Part shown: one piece after another, positions 5,421 through 30,696 of the stretch
How the letters are laid out: each line of letters begins with the position of its first letter
How positions within the stretch are numbered: the stretch's first letter is position 1
DNA from: Ignavibacteriae bacterium HGW-Ignavibacteriae-1
GTDB taxonomy: Bacteria; Bacteroidota; Ignavibacteria; Kapaibacteriales; UBA2268
Length of the DNA stretch: 53,631 nt
NCBI GenBank assembly: GCA_002839825.1
Contig: PGYU01000017.1
Span: forward strand, 1 to 53,631
Reading direction: 5' to 3'
Position numbers and translations under genes: made by a program
Notes under the pieces: model-generated
Told to the model about the DNA's origin: nothing
Database searches by the model: none
What the model saw: the letters and a program-made list of their open reading frames with translations, nothing else

Positions 5421-5762
5421 TTATGTGCCACAAATCATGTTTCTGTCTGTAGTTTGTAATCTCAGCCTGTCATTCAACAGCATAATATCGCGTTCAGTAT
5501 GTTTATCAATCATCGCCAAACAATCGTCAATCAGCAAATTGCGTTCTCGATTTATCCGGTAGTTGACCCACTTGCCATCTTTCTCATCCTCGATTAGCCC
5601 TGCTTCTTTGAGCAGAGAGAGGTGCTTCGAGACAGTGGAAGTAGCGAGTTGGAGTATATCGGTGATTTCGCACACGCATAGCTCACGCTCCTTCAGCATA
5701 GAGATGATTCTCATTCTGTTGCTGTCGCTCAAAGCCTTCAATATTTTCAACATTTCTTTCAT
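5421..5762 (-). CDS. arsR: ArsR-family metalloregulatory repressor
   Basis: A 113-residue winged-helix repressor. The metal-binding box ELCVCE (Cys29, Cys31) overlaps the start of the helix-turn-helix, whose recognition segment is ATSTVSKHLSLLKEAGL. Further cysteines are Cys81 and Cys111, and either might complete a three-coordinate As(III) site. It is the first gene of the arsenic operon and presumably represses it until arsenite binds. The ATG is only two bases from an inverted repeat (5765-5786), so there is no normal Shine-Dalgarno site in front of it. Confidence 0.93.
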   Translation of the reverse strand: MKEMLKILKALSDSNRMRIISMLKERELCVCEITDILQLATSTVSKHLSLLKEAGLIEDEKDGKWVNYRINRERNLLIDDCLAMIDKHTERDIMLLNDRLRLQTTDRNMICGT

Positions 5763-5764
5763 AT

Positions 5765-5786
5765 CGTTTCGTTAAATGACGAAACG
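5765..5786. promoter_or_regulatory. Likely ArsR operator (inverted repeat)
   Basis: CGTTTCGT and ACGAAACG form a perfect 8-base inverted repeat around the 6-base spacer TAAATG, immediately upstream of the arsR start codon. Its position and symmetry fit an operator for a small winged-helix repressor dimer. It occupies the place where the ribosome-binding site would normally be. Confidence 0.65.
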
Positions 5787-5812
5787 AAAGCAAGGATTAT
5801 TTTTCACATATG

Positions 5813-5820
5813 CAAATATA
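5813..5820 (-). promoter_or_regulatory. Possible -7 promoter element of the arsenic operon
   Basis: On the minus strand this reads TATATTTG, matching the Bacteroidota -7 consensus TAnnTTTG, about 50 bases upstream of arsR. The base run 19-20 bases upstream is T-rich but not an exact TTTG, so the -33 element is imperfect. The inverted repeat at 5765-5786 would lie downstream of the start site, where a bound repressor would block elongation or opening. Confidence 0.4.
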
Positions 5821-5864
5821 TTATTTTCTTGCACAATAAAAATATTTATAAATAATATTTAAAT

Positions 5865-5894
5865 AAAAAAAATGGGTGGCTAAATGCCACCCAT
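5865..5894 (-). terminator. Intrinsic terminator after the methylmalonyl-CoA mutase genes
   Basis: ATGGGTGGC (5872-5880) and GCCACCCAT (5886-5894) form a perfect 9-base stem with a 5-base loop. On the minus strand the stem is followed by a run of seven or more T. It lies 20 bases past the stop of the large subunit and separates it from the divergent-side arsR promoter region. Confidence 0.88.
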
Positions 5895-5913
5895 AATTTA
5901 TTAAATAGGAATT

Positions 5914-8085
5914 TTAATCTTTGTCTAACAGGTCGTGCATTAGCTTTTCGGCTGCAAGAGGAATAATTGTACCGGGACCAAAAATTTCATCGGCTCCGTT
6001 TTGATACAAAAATTCGTAATCTTGCGGGGGAATCACACCGCCGACGCAGATAATAATATCGTCACGTCCTAAAGTTTTCAACTCGGCTACAAGCTGTGGG
6101 ACTAAGGTTTTATGCCCTGCCGCGAGCGAACTGACGCCAATAATATGGACATCATTCTCAACTGCTTGTTTGGCAGTTTCGCGTGGAGTTTGGAAAAGAG
6201 GACCTACATCCACATCAAAACCCATGTCGGCAAAGGCTGTAGAGATAACTTTGGCGCCACGGTCGTGCCCATCTTGACCCATTTTTGCGACAAGAATTCT
6301 CGGACGGCGACCTTCCAAAGCTTCAAATTGGTCAGTCAAATCGCGAACTTTATCAATAGCGCCCGATTCAGCATAGGACGAGCTGTAAACACCTGATATA
6401 GTCCGAGTTTGCGCGTTATGTCTTCCTACTATTTTTTCAATTGCAGAAGAAATCTCGCCCAATGAAGCACGAACCTGTGCGGCTTTTATGGATAATTCGA
6501 GCAAATTACCTTCGCCTGTTTCGATAGATTTGGTAATTGCATCTAAAGCCATTTCCACGTCATTTTCATTACGATTAGCCTTAAGTTCTTCTAATCGTTT
6601 GAGTTGCTGGTCGCGAACCGCGGAATTATCAATATTTAAAATTTCGAGTGGGTCTTCATGTTCCAAACGATATTTATTTACACCGATAATATATTCAGCA
6701 CCCGAGTCAATTCTGGCTTGACGTCTTGCAGCAGCCTCTTCAATCCTCATTTTTGGGATTCCGGATTCGATAGCTTTTGCCATTCCACCAAGATTTTCAA
6801 TTTCTTGAATATGTGTCCACGCTTTTTTGACTAATTCATAGGTCAATTTTTCGACATAATATGAGCCGCCCCATGGGTCAATAACCTTGGTAATGCCGGT
6901 TTCTTCTTGCAAATAAATTTGAGTATTTCGGGCAATTCTCGCCGAAAAATCAGTTGGTAACGCAATGGCTTCATCGAGAGCGTTAGTATGCAAAGATTGA
7001 GTATGCCCCAAAACGGCTCCCATGGCTTCCATACAAGTTCTTACGACATTATTATAAGGGTCTTGCTCTGTAAGACTCCATCCTGATGTTTGACTATGTG
7101 TACGTAATGCCAATGACTTAGCATTCTTAGGGTTAAATTGTTTAATTATTTTAGACCAAATCAATCTGGCAGCACGCATTTTAGCAACTTCCATGAAATA
7201 ATTCATGCCAATAGCCCAGAAAAATGATAGACGTGGAGCGAATGCATCAATGTCAATTCCGGCTTTAATTCCGGTACGCACATATTCCAATCCATCGGCT
7301 AATGTATATCCCATTTCAATATCAGCTGTAGCTCCGGCTTCTTGCATATGATAACCGGAAATTGAAATACTGTTAAATTTCGGCATATTTTGCGAAGTAA
7401 ATTCGAAAATATCTGCAATTATTCGCATTGATGGTTCCGGTGGGTAAATATAAGTATTCCGCACCATATATTCTTTCAAAATATCATTTTGAATTGTGCC
7501 TGTAAGTTGTTCGTATTTAACGCCTTGCTCCAATGCAGCTACAATATAAAATGCCAAAACCGGAAGAACCGCACCGTTCATTGTCATGGAAACTGAAACT
7601 TTATCAAGCGGAATTCCATCGAATAAAACTTTCATATCCAAAATTGAATCTATTGCAACACCGGCTTTACCGACATCGCCAACAACGCGCTCGTGGTCTG
7701 AATCATAGCCTCTGTGCGTTGCCAAATCGAATGCAACGGAAAGTCCTTGCTGACCTGCTTCAATATTTCGTCTGTAAAAGGCGTTACTTTCTTCGGCTGT
7801 CGAAAAACCTGCATATTGTCTGATTGTCCAAGGACGAGTAACAAACATAGTTGGGTAGGGACCTCTTAAAAATGGTGCAATTCCGGCTGTAAATTTTGTA
7901 TGCTCTAATTGATTTTCATCATCAATATTATATAATGGGTCAATCGGAATATTTTCCATTGAGTTAATTTTTAATTCCGGAAAATCGGAATTCATATCAT
8001 TTAAAAATATTTCTTTCCAATCTTCAAATTTATTTTCGGCTTTGTCAAAATCCAGTTTAATTTTAGAAAAATCGGGCTTTTTCAT
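5914..8085 (-). CDS. mcmB: Methylmalonyl-CoA mutase, large (catalytic, B12-binding) subunit
   Basis: A 723-residue adenosylcobalamin enzyme interconverting succinyl-CoA and methylmalonyl-CoA. The N-terminal TIM barrel includes [18 protein letters not shown] and the C-terminal Rossmann domain has the base-off cobalamin motif DGHDRG, with the cobalt-ligand histidine near residue 607. Start choice: AAAGGAG at 8095-8101 lies 9 bases before the ATG at 8085, and the small-subunit stop ends one base before it. An upstream in-frame start at 8109 would place that Shine-Dalgarno inside the gene. No epimerase, MeaB chaperone or propionyl-CoA carboxylase gene lies nearby. The symbol follows one common usage; scpA/mutB are others. 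Confidence 0.95.
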
Positions 8086-22945: not shown

Positions 22946-23812
22946 TTGACAAACAAGTCGCAATCAATTTTATTTGCATTTGCTGCTGTTGCTCTCTGGT
23001 CAACAGTTGCAACCGCATTCAAGATTGCACTGGAATATCAATCACCTGATGATTTGCTCTTTTTGTCAGTATTTTTTTCAACCATTTTCTTTGGCATTTA
23101 CGTAATCTTCTCCAAGAAGACAAAATTCATATTGCCCAAGACAATTGATTTAGCCAAATCAGCTTTAGCCGGACTGATAAACCCTTTTTTGTACTATCTG
23201 GTGCTTTTCATTGCATATGATTTGCTGCCGGCGCAACTTGCACAGCCGCTCAATTACAGCTGGGTCATCGTTATTTCCATTTTGAGCATAGTTGTACTGA
23301 AACAAAAAATCAGAGCCGTAGAATTCGTATCTCTTTGCTTTGGATTGCTTGGAGTCGCAGTCATAGCCTCAGGCGGTAAGTTGATTTACGATACAAATTA
23401 CAGCGCTTTAGGCATATTTTTAGCAATAGGTAGCTCATTGCTTTGGGGAGCGTATTGGATTTTGAATCTGAAAGACAGCAGAGCAGTTGAAATCAAGCTC
23501 TTTTGGAGCTTTTTGTTTGGTACAATTTACATTTTCATTTACAGAGGCTTTTCCATTCCAACCTTATCGCCGGAAATTTTGCTGAGTTCGGGATATGTCG
23601 GATTATTCGAAATGGGAGTCACTTTCGTTTTGTGGATGAAAGCCTTGCAACTATCGCAAAACAATGCACAAATAGGCATGATAGTCTATTTGTCGCCGTT
23701 TTTATCGCTAATCATGATACATTTTGTGCTTGGCGAATCAATTCAAGTCACATCAATCTTTGGGCTTATTTTGATCATAGGCGGAGTTTTCCTCCGCCGT
23801 TTTATCAAATGA
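22946..23812 (+). CDS. EamA/DMT-family transporter
   Basis: A 288-residue inner-membrane protein with about ten transmembrane segments, composed of two EamA repeats (second near residue 150). The start codon is TTG at 22946, with no in-frame ATG nearby; the following peptide TNKSQSILFAFAAVALWST is the normal family N-terminus. It follows panC by 15 bases and ends 2 bases before a convergent small gene. The substrate is unknown; DMT transporters export amino acids or other metabolites. Confidence 0.85.
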   Translation: MTNKSQSILFAFAAVALWSTVATAFKIALEYQSPDDLLFLSVFFSTIFFGIYVIFSKKTKFILPKTIDLAKSALAGLINPFLYYLVLFIAYDLLPAQLAQPLNYSWVIVISILSIVVLKQKIRAVEFVSLCFGLLGVAVIASGGKLIYDTNYSALGIFLAIGSSLLWGAYWILNLKDSRAVEIKLFWSFLFGTIYIFIYRGFSIPTLSPEILLSSGYVGLFEMGVTFVLWMKALQLSQNNAQIGMIVYLSPFLSLIMIHFVLGESIQVTSIFGLILIIGGVFLRRFIK

Positions 23813-24096: not shown

Positions 24097-24148
24097 AATT
24101 TTTTTTCCTAAATCATTAAATTGTGTATATTCGTTTTGTAATAAAGAT

Positions 24149-24156
24149 TAAATTTG
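24149..24156 (+). promoter_or_regulatory. Possible -7 element of the FKBP-aro cluster
   Basis: TAAATTTG matches TAnnTTTG and lies 28 bases before the FKBP start codon. No TTTG is found at the expected upstream spacing. It is the only promoter-like box ahead of the long plus-strand gene run. Confidence 0.35.
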
Positions 24157-24184
24157 TATTTTTTTATTGTATGAGAAATAAATT

Positions 24185-24622
24185 ATGAAAATTGCTCAAG
24201 AAGGTGACAGAATAGTTGTTCATTTGATAGGTATGTTCGATGACGGATTCATTTTTGATAACACAAGCAATTCATCTCCGTATGAATTTTTATTAACAGA
24301 TGAGGAGCTCCTACCAGGTTTAAAGGAAAATATTCTCGGAATGAGAATTGGAGAGAAAAGGAATTTTTCGATTGAACCCGAACAAGCTTATGGTCTACAT
24401 AACCCTGATTTTATATTGCTTGTGGATAGGAAAGAACTGGTGTTCGACATTGAACCTGAGCCAGGAGACATTGTTGAGCTGCAATTGCCATCGGGTGAAT
24501 TGATTACTGTCGAAGTTGTTCAGAACCAAGGAGATGGCGTGCTGATTGATGCCAATCATCCTTATGTTGGGAAATCTTTGTCGTTTGAAGTCGAACTTGT
24601 TGATATAATAGAAAACGATTAG
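24185..24622 (+). CDS. slyD: FKBP-type peptidyl-prolyl isomerase, SlyD-like
   Basis: A 145-residue FKBP fold split by an insert-in-flap domain, the SlyD arrangement. N-terminal FKBP strands (DRIVVHLIGMFDDGFIFDNT) are followed by LLPGLKENILGMRIGEKR, the insert, and the closing DANHPYVGKSLSFEVELVDI. It has no histidine-rich metal-binding tail, unlike E. coli SlyD. It is probably a cytosolic folding helper. It begins the plus-strand run, 7 bases before the DAHP synthase gene, and may be cotranscribed with the aro genes although it has no known role in that pathway. Confidence 0.9.
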   Translation: MKIAQEGDRIVVHLIGMFDDGFIFDNTSNSSPYEFLLTDEELLPGLKENILGMRIGEKRNFSIEPEQAYGLHNPDFILLVDRKELVFDIEPEPGDIVELQLPSGELITVEVVQNQGDGVLIDANHPYVGKSLSFEVELVDIIEND

Positions 24623-24629
24623 ATTAATT

Positions 24630-25664
24630 ATGCTTAATAATATTGAAAAATTGAGGCATGAAATTGATAAGATTGACGACAAAATCGTCGAACTACTTAT
24701 TGATAGGAAGTCTCATACAGATGGCATCATCAAGCAAAAGGTGAATGCTCAAATTCCGATTTATGATTCCGACAGAGAGCTCGACATATTGAACAGGCTC
24801 AAAACAAAATTTCATAAGCAAATTGATAGTTTTCAGATTGAGCACATCTTTGGCGACATTTTGTTCTACTCAAAAATCGACTATTTCAAGTTTTCGGGCT
24901 TGCAAAATCTAAGTCTTGAGAAAATTTTAGCTGATGCTCCCTTTATTATCGCGGGACCGTGTACTGTTGAAAGTCACGAACAAATGGATAGCGTTGCTCA
25001 AAAACTTAGTAATCTCGGAATAAGGCTATTGAGAGGTGGAGCCTATAAACCGCGTACATCACCAATGTCATTTCAGGGTCTCGAAAACGAAGGAATTCGA
25101 TTGCTGAAGGAAACGGCTCTCAAATATGATATGTTTGTAGTCAGTGAGTTTACTGATTCAGAGCAATTGGAAAAGCATTATGACGAAGTAGATATAATCC
25201 AAATCGGCAGCCGGAATATGACTTCATCAGGATTCCTGAAACAAGTTGGTAAGCGCACTTCAAAGGACAAAAAACCTGTGATACTAAAGCGTGGTTTCGC
25301 TTCTACGATTAATGAATTTTTGCTTGCTTCACAGTATATCATAAATGAGGGCAATCCGAATGTGATGCTATGTTTGCGAGGAATTCGTTCGTTTGAACAA
25401 ATCGAATCTGAATTGCGTTATACACCCGACTTGGCATCTATTGTCGAGTTGAAGCGAAATTCGCCTTTGAAAGTTATTTTTGACCCGTCCCACGCTACCG
25501 GCAAAGCGAGTTATGTTTATCCTATATCTAAAGCAGCATTGGAGTTGGGTGCAGACGGACTGATGATTGAATGTCATGTAAACCCGGAGGAATCTGTGTC
25601 GGATTCATCGCAGACAATTTCTCCGCAAGAATTGGAAAGAATTTTGAAACTAATAATTAGATGA
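24630..25664 (+). CDS. aroF: Chorismate mutase-DAHP synthase fusion
   Basis: A 344-residue bifunctional protein. Residues 1-85 are an AroQ-type chorismate mutase (LRHEIDKIDDKIVELLIDRK). Residues 95-344 are a type I-beta DAHP synthase (IIAGPCTVES, LRGGAYKPRTSP, IFDPSHATG), which condenses phosphoenolpyruvate and erythrose 4-phosphate. In related fusions the mutase domain makes the synthase sensitive to chorismate or prephenate, so one protein probably links first committed step and pathway end. It opens a block of six aro genes that overlap or nearly touch. Confidence 0.95.
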   Translation: MLNNIEKLRHEIDKIDDKIVELLIDRKSHTDGIIKQKVNAQIPIYDSDRELDILNRLKTKFHKQIDSFQIEHIFGDILFYSKIDYFKFSGLQNLSLEKILADAPFIIAGPCTVESHEQMDSVAQKLSNLGIRLLRGGAYKPRTSPMSFQGLENEGIRLLKETALKYDMFVVSEFTDSEQLEKHYDEVDIIQIGSRNMTSSGFLKQVGKRTSKDKKPVILKRGFASTINEFLLASQYIINEGNPNVMLCLRGIRSFEQIESELRYTPDLASIVELKRNSPLKVIFDPSHATGKASYVYPISKAALELGADGLMIECHVNPEESVSDSSQTISPQELERILKLIIR

Positions 25665-25668
25665 TTAC

Positions 25669-26676
25669 ATGTTAATAATCGAACACGATGATGAATTCGA
25701 GTATCTCCGTCATATAGACGGTGATGTTTTTTTGATTGATGAAAATGCGTACAAACATTTCAAGTCGCACTTTGATTCATACAAAATTATCAAAATACCA
25801 AGCGGTGAAGAAAGTAAATCAATGAGCAACTTGGAACCAATCATCAAAAAATTGCTGAAATTCAATTTACGACGCAATCAAATGATTGTAGGAGTAGGTG
25901 GCGGAGTGGTTACCGATATAGCTGCTTTTTTGGCATCCGTTTATAAGCGTGGCACTAAGTTGGGTCTTGTCCCTACTACTTTGTTGGCTCAAGTTGATGC
26001 TTCAATCGGCGGCAAATCCGGCGTGAATTTCCATAATTTAAAAAATCTTATAGGTACATTCAAAACGCCTGAATATATCTATGTCAACAGGTATTTTCTG
26101 AACACATTGCCACGCGAAGAATTAAAAAATGGAATGGCAGAAGTTATCAAGTACGGATTGATTTATGATGAGAAACTCTTCAATTGGCTTATAGAAAATG
26201 ATTTGAAATCTATTTTGAAAGATGAAACCCTACTTGAAAAAATCATTTCACGCTCAGCAAATATCAAAAATGAAATCGTCGCCCATGACCCATTTGATGT
26301 TGGCTTTAGAAAGATTTTAAACTTTGGGCATACTTTGGGTCATGCTATTGAATTGCTCTACAATATTTCGCACGGACAAGCTGTAAGTATTGGTATGAGC
26401 TTCGGAATGGAGTTTTCGCATCTCAAAGGAGACATATCAAGTGACGAATTGATGTCTTTTTACAAAATCGTGAATGCTTACAATATGCAATACAAGTATG
26501 ATTTTGCAGTGGACGAAGTAGCAAAAATCGTGAGTCAGGATAAAAAAGCATCATACGATAAGATTGAATTTATTTTGCTGAAAGCAATCGGTGAACCGTA
26601 TATTTTCAACACCGATATAATCGAATTTAAGAGTGTATGCCATGAAGTGCTTAAGCTATGGAAAGAACGACCCTGA
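25669..26676 (+). CDS. aroB: 3-dehydroquinate synthase
   Basis: A 335-residue NAD-dependent enzyme, second step of the shikimate pathway. Motifs: VGGGVVTDIAAFLASVYKRG for NAD binding, LVPTTLLAQVDASIGGKSGVN, AEVIKYG, and the metal-binding histidines in NFGHTLGHAIE. It is at the short end for the family (usually about 350-370), through a compact N-terminus rather than loss of motifs. It starts 4 bases after the preceding gene and its end overlaps aroD. Confidence 0.96.
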   Translation: MLIIEHDDEFEYLRHIDGDVFLIDENAYKHFKSHFDSYKIIKIPSGEESKSMSNLEPIIKKLLKFNLRRNQMIVGVGGGVVTDIAAFLASVYKRGTKLGLVPTTLLAQVDASIGGKSGVNFHNLKNLIGTFKTPEYIYVNRYFLNTLPREELKNGMAEVIKYGLIYDEKLFNWLIENDLKSILKDETLLEKIISRSANIKNEIVAHDPFDVGFRKILNFGHTLGHAIELLYNISHGQAVSIGMSFGMEFSHLKGDISSDELMSFYKIVNAYNMQYKYDFAVDEVAKIVSQDKKASYDKIEFILLKAIGEPYIFNTDIIEFKSVCHEVLKLWKERP

Positions 26677-27274
26677 TTTGTTTTTGAATTTATTTGAGCG
26701 ATTTTCGCTTGTCGAGCTCAGGCAGGACTTGGCTCATTTCAATTACGAACAACTGAATTCTATCCCCAATGAATATAGACGAAAACTTATTTTGACCGAC
26801 AAAAGCGTTGATGAAACAAATTTGAAAGATTTTGTTGACAAAGCAATTGAACTCAAAGTAATGGCTGTAGATTTAGATGTTGAGTTTATCAATCCTAAAA
26901 CTATTGAATCAGTTTCAAAATTGCGAAGTAATGAAGTGCAATTGATTTTGTCAAAGCACGATGTGGATTTGTCCCAAAAAGCTGAATTAGAAAAAGTCTT
27001 CAGCATGTTTGATCAAGTTGAGTGCGACTACATCAAAATCGTTTATACCGAGTGCGAACGAAAGTACATCGTGGATTATATCTCAACTTTCAAGCTTTTT
27101 CAGCATAAATTGATTTCGTTTATAGCCGGAGATACGATGAAATTTACTCGAATGTTGAGCCTTGTTCTTGGTTCACCATTTACATATGTAGCTCTTGATG
27201 AAACGGCAAAAACGGGTGACGGGCAGTTGACGATAGATGAATATGATACTTTATCAAAAGTAATGGGTTTATGA
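26642..27274 (+). CDS. aroD: Type I 3-dehydroquinate dehydratase
   Basis: About 210 residues, a class I (Schiff-base) dehydroquinase, third step. Recognisable segments: LVELRQDL near the N-terminus, AVDLDVEF, LSKHD, the lysine segment YIKIV, and the closing SPFTYVALDETAKTGDGQLT. The catalytic histidine would be in SKHD. Start: the open frame extends to a GTG at 26633; the ATG at 26642 has AAGAG eight bases upstream. Both overlap the aroB end. The sequence is divergent, so the call rests on several weak motifs plus the operon. Confidence 0.85.
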   Translation: MKCLSYGKNDPDLFLNLFERFSLVELRQDLAHFNYEQLNSIPNEYRRKLILTDKSVDETNLKDFVDKAIELKVMAVDLDVEFINPKTIESVSKLRSNEVQLILSKHDVDLSQKAELEKVFSMFDQVECDYIKIVYTECERKYIVDYISTFKLFQHKLISFIAGDTMKFTRMLSLVLGSPFTYVALDETAKTGDGQLTIDEYDTLSKVMGL

Positions 27275-28500
27275 TTAGAGCGGCAGTAATAGGCAATCCG
27301 ATTTTGCACAGTTTAAGTCCTGTGCTGGCTCATCAGCTATTTCAGGTCTGTGAGTTGGATGGTCATTATTCGCGAATATGCGGTTCTGATTTTGATGATG
27401 TTATCAATCTTGTAAACTATCTCGAACTTGATTACATCAACATTACATCGCCTTTCAAAAGTGAGGCAACCAAACTTGGTCATATAATGCAATCTACTGC
27501 ATATGAAACTAAATTAGTCAACACGATTTTGTTCAATTCATCTCAAGCAATCGCTCTGAATACCGATACACATGCAATTTCGACAATCTTGAAGCAATTA
27601 CCTCAAACACATTTCAAAAGGGTGCTCATAATTGGCGGTGGTGACACCGCTTTAATCAGTTACCATGTTCTCAAAAACATAAGTGAAGAAATTATCGGAC
27701 TATCAATCCGAGATTCTAACAACCCTTATTATCAACTATTTAAGTTTGATGAGTTGATAAATTTTGATAGCCAATTTGATTTGATTATCAACACTCATCC
27801 CAAAAAAGCTTTCAACTATCCGGCTACCTTTTTCAAAGATTCGATTGTAATTGATGCTATTTATCATAAACCTTGGTTGAATCAATTTCAAAGCAAACTT
27901 TACATAGACGGACTCGAATGGCTGAAGCAACAAGGCTTGAAATCATTTGAATATGCAATTGATATTGATATTTTAAATTTTGAACTTGCTGAAGAGCCTG
28001 CTTTCAACGAAAAAAGCAACATTTACCTAAGCGGGTTTATGAAATCCGGCAAGACTACAATTGGCAAAGAGTTAGCGATTCGACTTAACTATGATTTTAT
28101 AGATTTGGACGAATACATTGAAAGGACAACCGGGATGACAATCCCCAATATTTTCAATTCAGTTGGAGAGAATGGTTTCAGAGAATTCGAAAGTAAATCG
28201 CTAAAAGAGATTTCAATGCGAACCAAAACTATTATCGCGCTCGGAGGTGGCACTGTACTCAATCCATTGAATGTTGAAGTTATCAACTCAAACGGATATA
28301 ACATTTGGATTTTCAATTACTTACGTGATATTTTGGAACGAACTGACAACATGGAACGACCACTCTTTACCGGAAACGTCGCAGAACTTTACGAAAGTAG
28401 AGTTGAAACATATTTTGAGTCATCTGATATGATTATTCATAACAATCAGCTTGATAAAACATTAGATTTGCTCGAAAATGAAATTCGTAACACGCTCTAA
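27271..28500 (+). CDS. aroEK: Shikimate dehydrogenase-shikimate kinase fusion
   Basis: A 409-residue fusion of steps four and five. Residues 1-240 are AroE-like: GNPILHSLSP binds shikimate, NITSPFK carries the catalytic lysine, NTD follows, and GGGDTA is the nucleotide turn. Residues 248-409 are AroK: Walker A GFMKSGKTTIG, DLDEYIE, FREFESKSL with substrate arginine, IALGGGTV, and ERPL in the lid. The gene overlaps aroD by ATGA and aroA by 23 bases. The fusion should be functional, since both active sites look intact. The symbol is descriptive. Confidence 0.93.
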   Translation: MIRAAVIGNPILHSLSPVLAHQLFQVCELDGHYSRICGSDFDDVINLVNYLELDYINITSPFKSEATKLGHIMQSTAYETKLVNTILFNSSQAIALNTDTHAISTILKQLPQTHFKRVLIIGGGDTALISYHVLKNISEEIIGLSIRDSNNPYYQLFKFDELINFDSQFDLIINTHPKKAFNYPATFFKDSIVIDAIYHKPWLNQFQSKLYIDGLEWLKQQGLKSFEYAIDIDILNFELAEEPAFNEKSNIYLSGFMKSGKTTIGKELAIRLNYDFIDLDEYIERTTGMTIPNIFNSVGENGFREFESKSLKEISMRTKTIIALGGGTVLNPLNVEVINSNGYNIWIFNYLRDILERTDNMERPLFTGNVAELYESRVETYFESSDMIIHNNQLDKTLDLLENEIRNTL

Positions 28501-29722
28501 TATCCAAGGTGTCATATCTGCGCCGCCTTCCAAAAGCCATTCACAAAGGCTTCTGCTTAATTCGATTTTAACAAGCTCAGAGTTAAAAATCAAAAATCTT
28601 TCAGATTGTGAAGATTCAATCCTGCTGATTTATGCTTTAAAACAATGGGGAAAGTCCATTAATTTCAACTCACATAGTGCAAAAATTCGTGGTGAAATTT
28701 CAAGAACTGAAAGCACTATCCACCTTGGAGAATCCGGTTTTTGTGCAAGAGTTTTACCATTAGTCGCACTTTGCTTTGAAGGAACAACTGTCTTCAGCGG
28801 GGCAAAAAGTCTGTTCCAAAGACCGCTTAGCGATTTGACTACAATTGCAAATCAATTGAGTGCTAAGATTGAAATAGATTACGAACGATGTACAATCACT
28901 TCTCATGGACCTGCTTTAGGAGCTGATATAAGCATTGATGGAAGCATAAGCTCGCAATATCTTACAGGAATTTTGTACTTGTTTTCAAAGCTGGAAGTTT
29001 TCAATACAATAGCTGTTAAATCATTGCAAAGTAAAGGATATATTGACTACACTTTAGATGCTTTGCAATCCATGGGTATTAGATTTGAAAATTATGATTA
29101 TTCAAAATTTAACCTCTTGAACATCAGCCATTTTCATGCAAATCAATTCGTCGTCGAAGGTGATTGGAGTGCAGCTGCATTTCTGATGGTCGTAGGAGCA
29201 ATAGCAGGAAAAATGAAAATTCTGGGATTGAATTTTGAATCAATCCAACCCGATAAAGCAATATTTGAATTATTACAAAAAATTGGTGCAAAAATCATCT
29301 TAACGAAGGAAAGCTTTGTTATTGAAAAATCAGAACTTATAGCATTCGATTATGATTCAACCCATACTCCGGATTTAGTACCTGCCTTGATTCCCTTGGC
29401 ATTGTCAATTTCAGGTAAATCAACTATAAGAGGTGTCGAACGTCTGAAATTCAAGGAAAGTGACAGGTTGGCAAATTTAGTTAATCAATTCAAGCAGATG
29501 GGCTCTGAGATTGAAATTTTAGATGGAGTTATTGAAATCAATGGTGGGAAATTCATCGGCGGGAATGCTCAAACTTTCAATGACCACAGATTGGCAATGT
29601 CTTTTGCTGTTGCAGGAGCGATTTCTGAGCGTGGAGTTACGATTGACAATGAAGAATGCGTCAGCAAATCATATCCCGAATTTTGGAATGATATGAAGAA
29701 AATAAATTTGGAATCAAAATGA
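28478..29722 (+). CDS. aroA: 5-enolpyruvylshikimate-3-phosphate synthase
   Basis: A 414-residue EPSP synthase, sixth step. The N-terminus ISAPPSKSHSQRLLL carries the substrate-binding lysine and serine. LGESGFCARVLPLVAL replaces the more common LGNAGTA/TRxL loop. DHRLAMSFAV with FKESDRLANL is near the end. The loop carries a serine and cysteine variant, which places it outside the classical E. coli-like pattern. It overlaps the upstream fusion by 23 bases and aroC by 4. Confidence 0.95.
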   Translation: MKFVTRSNIQGVISAPPSKSHSQRLLLNSILTSSELKIKNLSDCEDSILLIYALKQWGKSINFNSHSAKIRGEISRTESTIHLGESGFCARVLPLVALCFEGTTVFSGAKSLFQRPLSDLTTIANQLSAKIEIDYERCTITSHGPALGADISIDGSISSQYLTGILYLFSKLEVFNTIAVKSLQSKGYIDYTLDALQSMGIRFENYDYSKFNLLNISHFHANQFVVEGDWSAAAFLMVVGAIAGKMKILGLNFESIQPDKAIFELLQKIGAKIILTKESFVIEKSELIAFDYDSTHTPDLVPALIPLALSISGKSTIRGVERLKFKESDRLANLVNQFKQMGSEIEILDGVIEINGGKFIGGNAQTFNDHRLAMSFAVAGAISERGVTIDNEECVSKSYPEFWNDMKKINLESK

Positions 29723-30696
29723 ATACATTTGGTAGAATATTTAGAGTCAGTATTTTTGGTGAATCCCATGGCCCGATTGTGGGTGTAATGATTGACGGTT
29801 GCCCACCAGGAATAGCACTGAATGTTGATGATTTCAAAGCAGATTTAGACCGTCGCAAACCCGGAATTACTGGAACTACAACTCGAATCGAAGATGATAT
29901 CCCGAATTTTCTTTCGGGTGTTTTTGAAGGCAAGACTACCGGGGCACCATTAACGATAACATTCGAAAATAATCAGCAACGAAGCGGTGATTATGAAAAA
30001 AATCAATTTATTCCTCGACCGGGACATTCGGATTATACGGCGCATATCAAATTCAAAGGTTTCAATGATTTTCGTGGCGGTGGGCAATTTTCCGGCAGAT
30101 TAACTGCTGCATTAGTAGCAGCAGGCGTTGTTGCTAAAAAGTTGATTGGCACAATCAAAATCCAAGCACGAATTGTAGAAATTGGCGGTGAAGTAAATTA
30201 TGATGAAGTGCTCAATAATGCTATTCAATCCGGTGATTCACTTGGCGGAATTGTCGAATGCGTTATTTCCGGTGTTCCGATTGGATTAGGCGAACCATTT
30301 TTCGATTCCGTAGAATCAGTCATATCTCATGCAGTATTTTCGATACCTGCTATAAAAGGGATTGAATTTGGCAGAGGGTTTGAATCTGCCAAAATTAGTG
30401 GAAGTGATTTGAATGACGAGATAATAAGTTCTGACGGTAAGACAGCTACAAATAATGCAGGAGGTGTGAATGGTGGCATTTCTAATGGCAACGATATTGT
30501 TTTTCGGATTGCTGTTAAGCCGACTTCCTCAATCTCAAAAACTCAAAAAACGATTGATATCAGAACCGGCGAGCAAACTAAATTGATCACACAAGGGCGA
30601 CATGATGCCTGTATAGCACTACGTGTACCGCCTGTTTTAGAAGCTGTTGCAGCTATTTGTATTGCAGACTTCGTGATGCTAAATAAATCTTATTGA
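29719..30696 (+). CDS. aroC: Chorismate synthase
   Basis: A 325-residue FMN-dependent enzyme, final step to chorismate. It begins GRIFRVSIFGESHGPIVGVMIDGCPPG and has PRPGHSDYTAHIKF, FRGGGQFSGRLTAALVAAG and RHDACIALRVPPVLEA. The FSGRLTA form is that of clostridial and spirochaete chorismate synthases. It is somewhat short (350-390 is usual) but all main motifs are present. It overlaps aroA by ATGA and closes the pathway block. Confidence 0.95.
   Translation: MNTFGRIFRVSIFGESHGPIVGVMIDGCPPGIALNVDDFKADLDRRKPGITGTTTRIEDDIPNFLSGVFEGKTTGAPLTITFENNQQRSGDYEKNQFIPRPGHSDYTAHIKFKGFNDFRGGGQFSGRLTAALVAAGVVAKKLIGTIKIQARIVEIGGEVNYDEVLNNAIQSGDSLGGIVECVISGVPIGLGEPFFDSVESVISHAVFSIPAIKGIEFGRGFESAKISGSDLNDEIISSDGKTATNNAGGVNGGISNGNDIVFRIAVKPTSSISKTQKTIDIRTGEQTKLITQGRHDACIALRVPPVLEAVAAICIADFVMLNKSY

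Follow-up and report, generated by a model that had tools for sequence, protein, structure and literature searches.

The window analysed here, a stretch of 53,631 nucleotides of contig PGYU01000017.1 from Ignavibacteriae bacterium HGW-Ignavibacteriae-1, carries six consecutive plus-strand genes at 24630-30696 that together form a complete shikimate row: chorismate mutase (CM, AroQ)-DAHP synthase (24630-25664), AroB (3-dehydroquinate synthase, 25669-26676), AroD (type I 3-dehydroquinase, 26642-27274, with an alternative GTG start at 26633), AroE-AroK (a 409-aa shikimate dehydrogenase-shikimate kinase, 27271-28500), AroA (EPSP synthase, 28478-29722), and AroC (chorismate synthase of the short form, 325 aa, 29719-30696). 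Open reading frames and Pfam matches, all above gathering scores, bear out a sequence-only reading of this DNA in which all seven steps of the shikimate pathway, and chorismate mutase as well, are encoded contiguously on a single strand, in the order of the reactions (DAHP synthase, AroB, AroD, AroE, AroK, AroA, AroC) and with two fusions, CM-DAHP synthase and AroE-AroK. Its count of seven steps stands; its starting point, DAHP, is the product of step one, and the pathway begins with PEP and erythrose-4-phosphate. The row is as compact as had been described, successive junctions being a gap of 4 bases, an overlap of 35 (AroD ATG at 26642) or 44 (GTG at 26633), and overlaps of 4, 23 and 4. The genome contains a single match for each of the five profiles searched (AroC, AroE, AroB, AroD, and CM_2).

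Matches to NCBIfam models passed the equivalog cut-off for CM-DAHP synthase (NF009239, 294.8 bits, curated cut-off 279), AroB (TIGR01357, 331 bits vs 305), AroA (TIGR01356, 308 bits vs 287), and AroC (TIGR00033, 358 bits vs 212; PF01264, 389 bits), and the first of these proteins has PF01817 at residues 8-81 and PF00793 (DAHP synthase I) at residues 103-340. AroD, AroE and AroK are divergent in sequence and fall below the cut-off of every NCBIfam model listed, so their names rest on Pfam (PF01487 for AroD, 65.5 bits vs 22.2; PF08501 at residues 6-86 and PF01202 at residues 257-395 for AroE-AroK), fold, and context. The second AroE domain is not recognized by Pfam in the 409-aa protein. An AlphaFold model of this protein, built from an alignment of 6 sequences, has a mean pLDDT of 77 and a pTM of 0.75, with 10-residue blocks scoring lower in the AroE half (54-87) than in the kinase half (58-95), and Foldseek finds about 255 aligned columns with solved shikimate dehydrogenases and 175 with a solved shikimate kinase. 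Both domains share one open frame, and both folds are present in the predicted structure.

Alignment shows that AroE retains SPFK and NTD, AroD a His and a Lys, and AroA SKS..R; the SPFK lysine, the NTD aspartate, and the AroD and AroA residues presumably have catalytic or active-site roles. One loop of AroA, N-A-G-T in common EPSP synthases, has GESGF in its place here and takes several forms in this operon type (GESGL, GEAGL, ESA, and others), and SGT is retained in that loop in all eight sister-family AroA proteins shown. The GESHG motif of AroC is intact in 14 other AroC starts printed and reads GESHS or GESHN in four genomes of the same family (L021, L031, L034, L042), where AroC is located apart from other aro genes.

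An FKBP-type peptidyl-prolyl isomerase gene (24185-24622, plus strand, PF00254), which the earlier reading had left out, ends 7 nt upstream of the first aro gene and is probably the first gene of the transcription unit. In a tblastn comparison of 22 loci it adjoins the aro row, directly upstream of CM-DAHP synthase, in L041, L022, and L026, and the small divergent ORF upstream of it (24096-23815, minus strand) is likewise present in all three. The interval between that ORF and FKBP (24097-24184) is a likely promoter region, and TAAATTTG at 24149-24156 fits the -7 consensus of Bacteroidota, TAnnTTTG; a sigma-70 pattern scan was uninformative (28 sites vs 25.3 expected). Farther upstream lie a plus-strand terminator-like hairpin with a T-run (23780-23798; 7-bp stem, 6 G-C pairs; a consensus match only) and an EamA transporter gene (22946-23812), whose product scores weakly, at 54 bits against a cut-off of 300, with the YddG model of aromatic exporters and has a homologue (95%) adjoining the row in L041. 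Downstream, a sensor-kinase gene starts 34 nt after AroC. Among the 22 loci, the two downstream kinase genes adjoin the row in L041 alone, a locus of the same genus; L023 has kinase homologues of 28-30% identity about 2 kb from the row on its opposite side. Terminator-like sites are more frequent in the region than in shuffled sequence (11 vs 4.2, SD=2.2); six of the 11 lie on the plus strand within genes of the unit, one of them, at 29901-29918 in aroC, with a T-run, and these sites within genes slightly lower confidence in a one-operon reading.

Seventeen genomes of the same family (f1) have AroC, and in ten of them DAHP synthase, AroB, AroD, fused AroE-AroK, AroA, and AroC occur in this order in one neighbourhood (the HGW-Ignavibacteriae-1 row, L041, L022, L026, L023, L024, L025, L028, L029, and L030), with domains some hundred bases apart in several rows and up to 1353 in L029. 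The row is split in the other seven (G225, G232, G168, G173, G231, G215, G221); in G232 it reaches the contig end and AroC lies on a separate contig. All 17 carry AroE and AroK in one open frame, and in L023 AroD is also joined to give a 664-aa AroD=AroE=AroK protein (an equals sign marks a fusion, taken as an open frame without internal stop). CM is fused before DAHP synthase in eight of the 17 and placed after AroC in L024, and none is found at the loci of the remaining f1 genomes. One further family genome (L163, G234) has a 404-aa open frame for AroE with no detectable AroK, and genome profile searches for AroC, AroB, and AroD find none there.

The sequence-only reading named an ordinary order as evidence against itself, and the synteny survey largely finds this: the order is the commonest arrangement in its own family and recurrent in Spirochaetota and elsewhere. 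Since the same row also occurs in the same-genus genome G205, and the order in 10 of 17 family genomes and in other phyla, its arrangement is not a matter of chance. The accompanying remark that bacteria often scatter these genes is fair: 8 of 10 class-level AroC loci fetched have no second aro domain within about 9 kb, the exceptions being L052, with AroB, AroD=AroE and AroA, and L057, with AroK=AroB (one open frame at 5466-7151, genome G128 of the same class).

Across the phylum, AroC was found in 136 of 148 genomes of a phylum sample, 11 of the 12 without it belonging to the same family or order and one (G137) lying elsewhere, and AroE in 317 of 345 phylum genomes, with all 20 of the AroE-less genomes that were listed (28 in total) falling in the same order. 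Among at least 80 named loci listed by an AroC alignment search, 42 have fused DAHP synthase and CM, AroB, AroA, and AroC, many of them titled Chitinophagaceae or genera thereof, and two have the whole row with AroE=AroK: L118 (Spirochaetia UBA5550) and L138. The latter belongs to a MAG filed as Micrarchaeota and is perhaps misbinned, transfer being the alternative. AroE occurs in 214 of the 247 genomes searched in L118's phylum; nine of these, chosen among the matches listed for AroE open frames of at least 420 aa, comprise three with the full row and AroE=AroK followed by CM, four with AroD=AroE, and two with AroE alone, so that the row with AroE=AroK is present in four Spirochaetota genomes (L118, L191, L192, L193). 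L126, titled Deltaproteobacteria and ranked in Myxococcota, has the row without AroD; AroE is present in 38 of 46 genomes of its phylum and AroE=AroK is known only for L126 itself, in a count that leaves out five other long open frames. In L105 (Deltaproteobacteria UBA2409) AroE=AroK is shorter and AroB has no match at the locus. Two Bacteroidales MAGs carry an AroD=AroA fusion (L112:7471-9489 and L129:7198-9501), confirmed by Pfam in L112.

Searches of the 99 genomes of the order matched AroC in 34 (17/30 in f1, 3/3 in f34, 10/10 in f37, 3/3 in f38, 1/1 in f39), AroE in 34, AroB in 31, and AroD in 31; none of the four was found in the 52 genomes of families f2, f3, f4, f35, and f36, whose members are probably auxotrophic for aromatics, a condition concentrated in this order. 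The profiles disagree in a few genomes: G234 has AroE only, G189 (86% complete) AroC only, G221 lacks AroB and AroD, G193 lacks AroB, and in G166 AroD is missed by Pfam, although the locus shows a weak AroD domain. In 14 control genomes the profiles matched AroC in 14, AroE in 14, AroB in 11, and AroD in 7.

The sister families that retain the pathway fuse its genes differently. All three f34 genomes have DAHP synthase, AroB, AroD=AroE, AroA, and AroK, with AroC elsewhere. Of the nine f37 genomes surveyed, all but G189, six (L141-L146) carry AroB=AroD=AroE, followed by AroA in three of them; G185 and G197 have AroD=AroE with AroB apart and G193 an AroD=AroE cut by the contig start. The f38 loci read DAHP synthase, AroB=AroD=AroE, AroA=AroK, AroC (L049), DAHP synthase, AroB=AroD=AroE, AroA, AroK, AroC (L147), and DAHP synthase, AroB, AroD=AroE, AroA, AroK, AroC (L047), and the f39 locus L044 reads DAHP synthase, AroB, AroD=AroE=AroA, AroK, AroC. 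Trifunctional AroB=AroD=AroE fusions, in frames 834-959 aa long, thus occur in eight genomes of two families (L141-L146, L049, L147), and assembly error is unlikely for a fusion found in that many; AroD=AroE=AroK, AroD=AroE=AroA, and AroA=AroK are known from one genome each. Pfam confirmed the domains on a single chain in L142, L049 (both proteins), L023, L044, L112, and L118. In the available portions of the literature surveyed, including PMC3018139 and PMC11237513, we found no description of bacterial AroB-AroD-AroE, AroD-AroE-AroK, or AroD-AroE-AroA proteins, and absence from print is not claimed.

Two trees were built, both by quick searches with SH-aLRT support only and on sequences of uneven composition. 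In the first (DAHP synthase, AroB, AroA, and AroC concatenated; 49 rows, including 15 of the 17 f1 genomes), f1 forms one clade (99) joined with distant Bacteroidota (only 89), and Myxococcota, Spirochaetia, Termititenax, and others lie further out, a grouping favoured by the sampling, because the named rows were picked by likeness to this AroC type. Families f34, f37, f38, and f39, together with the class member G014, fall beyond a long branch (100), and a single clade of the order plus G014 is rejected, though with an AU p of only 0.020. The second tree (AroE plus AroK; 40 rows, including 14 of the 17 f1 proteins) separates 21 fused proteins and one unfused protein (from the genome of L064) from 18 unfused (SH-aLRT 98) and again rejects the order as one clade (AU p 0.0034). 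A single clade of all fused proteins is no worse a fit than the unconstrained tree (p 0.51). The L105 protein is nested within f1 and a clade of f1 alone is likewise not rejected (p 0.324), so several origins of the AroE=AroK fusion are possible. Recent transfer into this genome, as judged by composition, is rejected, since within the contig the row has no GC anomaly (0.372 vs 0.375); any transfer would thus be old.

The same absence of a GC anomaly, the single clade (99) formed by the enzymes of the family, and a skeleton of DAHP synthase, AroB, AroD, AroE ... AroA ... AroC common to both operon types would also suit vertical descent of the row within the order: the sister families would then have exchanged theirs for another operon, AroE=AroK would be ancestral and widely lost, and nothing would have been transferred into this family. 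We regard this as doubtful: with AroE=AroK rows in several phyla it requires very many losses, and in the phylum of L126 the fusion is known in just one of 38 AroE carriers, with the five long frames left out. We consider it likely instead that this is a biosynthetic operon of an ordinary kind, belonging to a reaction-ordered, AroE=AroK-fused type that had one origin and spread across several phyla; Spirochaetota, this family of Bacteroidota, and others would have exchanged it, and the sister families would hold a separately descended shikimate operon.

As an ordinary operon of this type, the unit would serve housekeeping biosynthesis with the genome's only matches for AroB, AroD, AroE, AroC, and CM. 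FKBP, CM-DAHP synthase, AroB, AroD, AroE-AroK, AroA, and AroC would be read as one transcript, starting probably within 24097-24184, and their translation may be coupled through the gene overlaps. In the Bacillus-type fusion, the CM domain acts as a feedback sensor of DAHP synthase, and by analogy the N-terminal CM here most likely has a double role in prephenate formation and feedback control of its partner. AroE-AroK is predicted from its sequence to carry 3-dehydroshikimate to shikimate-3-phosphate on one chain, and the main effect of the fusion would be equal amounts of the two activities.

The picture drawn from a single genome thus becomes a comparative one, in which several phyla share one operon type, the sister families have a different shikimate operon, and other families lack the pathway. 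More interesting than the HGW-Ignavibacteriae-1 row is how repeatedly adjacent shikimate genes have become fused across the order. We give roughly an even chance to the order being a natural laboratory of fusion, in which two separately descended, largely reaction-ordered operons had their neighbouring genes fused in different ways; the series, with two or three activities in several orders, supplies ready-made natural proteins with which to ask why the enzymes of a pathway fuse.

Operons that follow the order of their reactions are already known. The aro cluster of Pyrococcus is reaction-ordered, with a non-homologous GHMP-type kinase. Here the order may be a functionless historical accident kept by descent, a reading we hold to be a real possibility though somewhat short of an even chance: AroK is placed after AroA in the sister families that have it in the row, and the row is split in 7 of 17 family genomes, but metabolic operons of Escherichia coli show an excess of colinearity, for which stochastic stalling in low-expression operons is proposed as the cause in the part of PMC2684527 consulted. 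The operon of Enterococcus faecalis, which under the names used in the accessible part of PMC1173090 runs aroD, aroAIbeta, aroB, aroG, tyrA, aroF, aroE, pheA, likewise has most shikimate genes in one row; it differs in its order, in including tyrA and pheA, and in having no fusion in that table.

Of the two fusions, CM-DAHP synthase has the architecture of NF009239 (PRK12595), identical with no difference found. AroE-AroK fusions are already in print, from archaea and two bacterial assemblies, in the part of PMC11237513 consulted; the archaeal proteins join the same two activities, whereas the present one is bacterial and lies within a complete reaction-ordered row, the comparison being one of activities and not of domain order or kinase type.

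The sequence-only reading had likened the row to a step towards the fungal pentafunctional AROM protein. Shikimate enzymes are fused in AROM/Aro1 as they are here, but the row fuses only AroE with AroK and keeps AroB, AroD, and AroA separate, so that the five activities lie on four chains; DAHP synthase and CM, joined in the other fusion, are outside AROM's five domains. The domains of AROM run DHQS, EPSPS, SK, DHQase, DHSD, according to the part of PMC9074039 available, that is B-A-K-D-E, and in the AROM structure 7u5s SK occupies 859-1008 and SDH 1274-1551, with K before E and D between. Here E precedes K and D is a gene of its own, and the idea of an AROM precursor is rejected on the ground of domain order, E-K being absent from B-A-K-D-E. 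The AROM-type model TIGR01809 scores 32 bits against a cut-off of 196, a value that does not discriminate, since this AroE also falls below all other NCBIfam AroE models listed. It could still be argued that the order of the genes and the many ways in which neighbours are joined among families of the order (E=K, D=E=K, D=E, B=D=E, D=E=A, A=K) arise from an enzyme assembly that channels intermediates, and mark a step towards an AROM-like multienzyme; as E-K is no part of AROM's arrangement, we think this very improbable. In the f38 genome G159, AroB=AroD=AroE (864 aa) adjoins AroA=AroK (659 aa) at L049:10158-14704 (minus strand), so that two neighbouring proteins together hold all five activities of AROM; the blocks A-K and D-E also occur in AROM. 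If the order is such a natural laboratory, its bacterial trifunctional enzymes could show, outside eukaryotes, whether fusion of the AROM kind serves channelling or equal dosage only.
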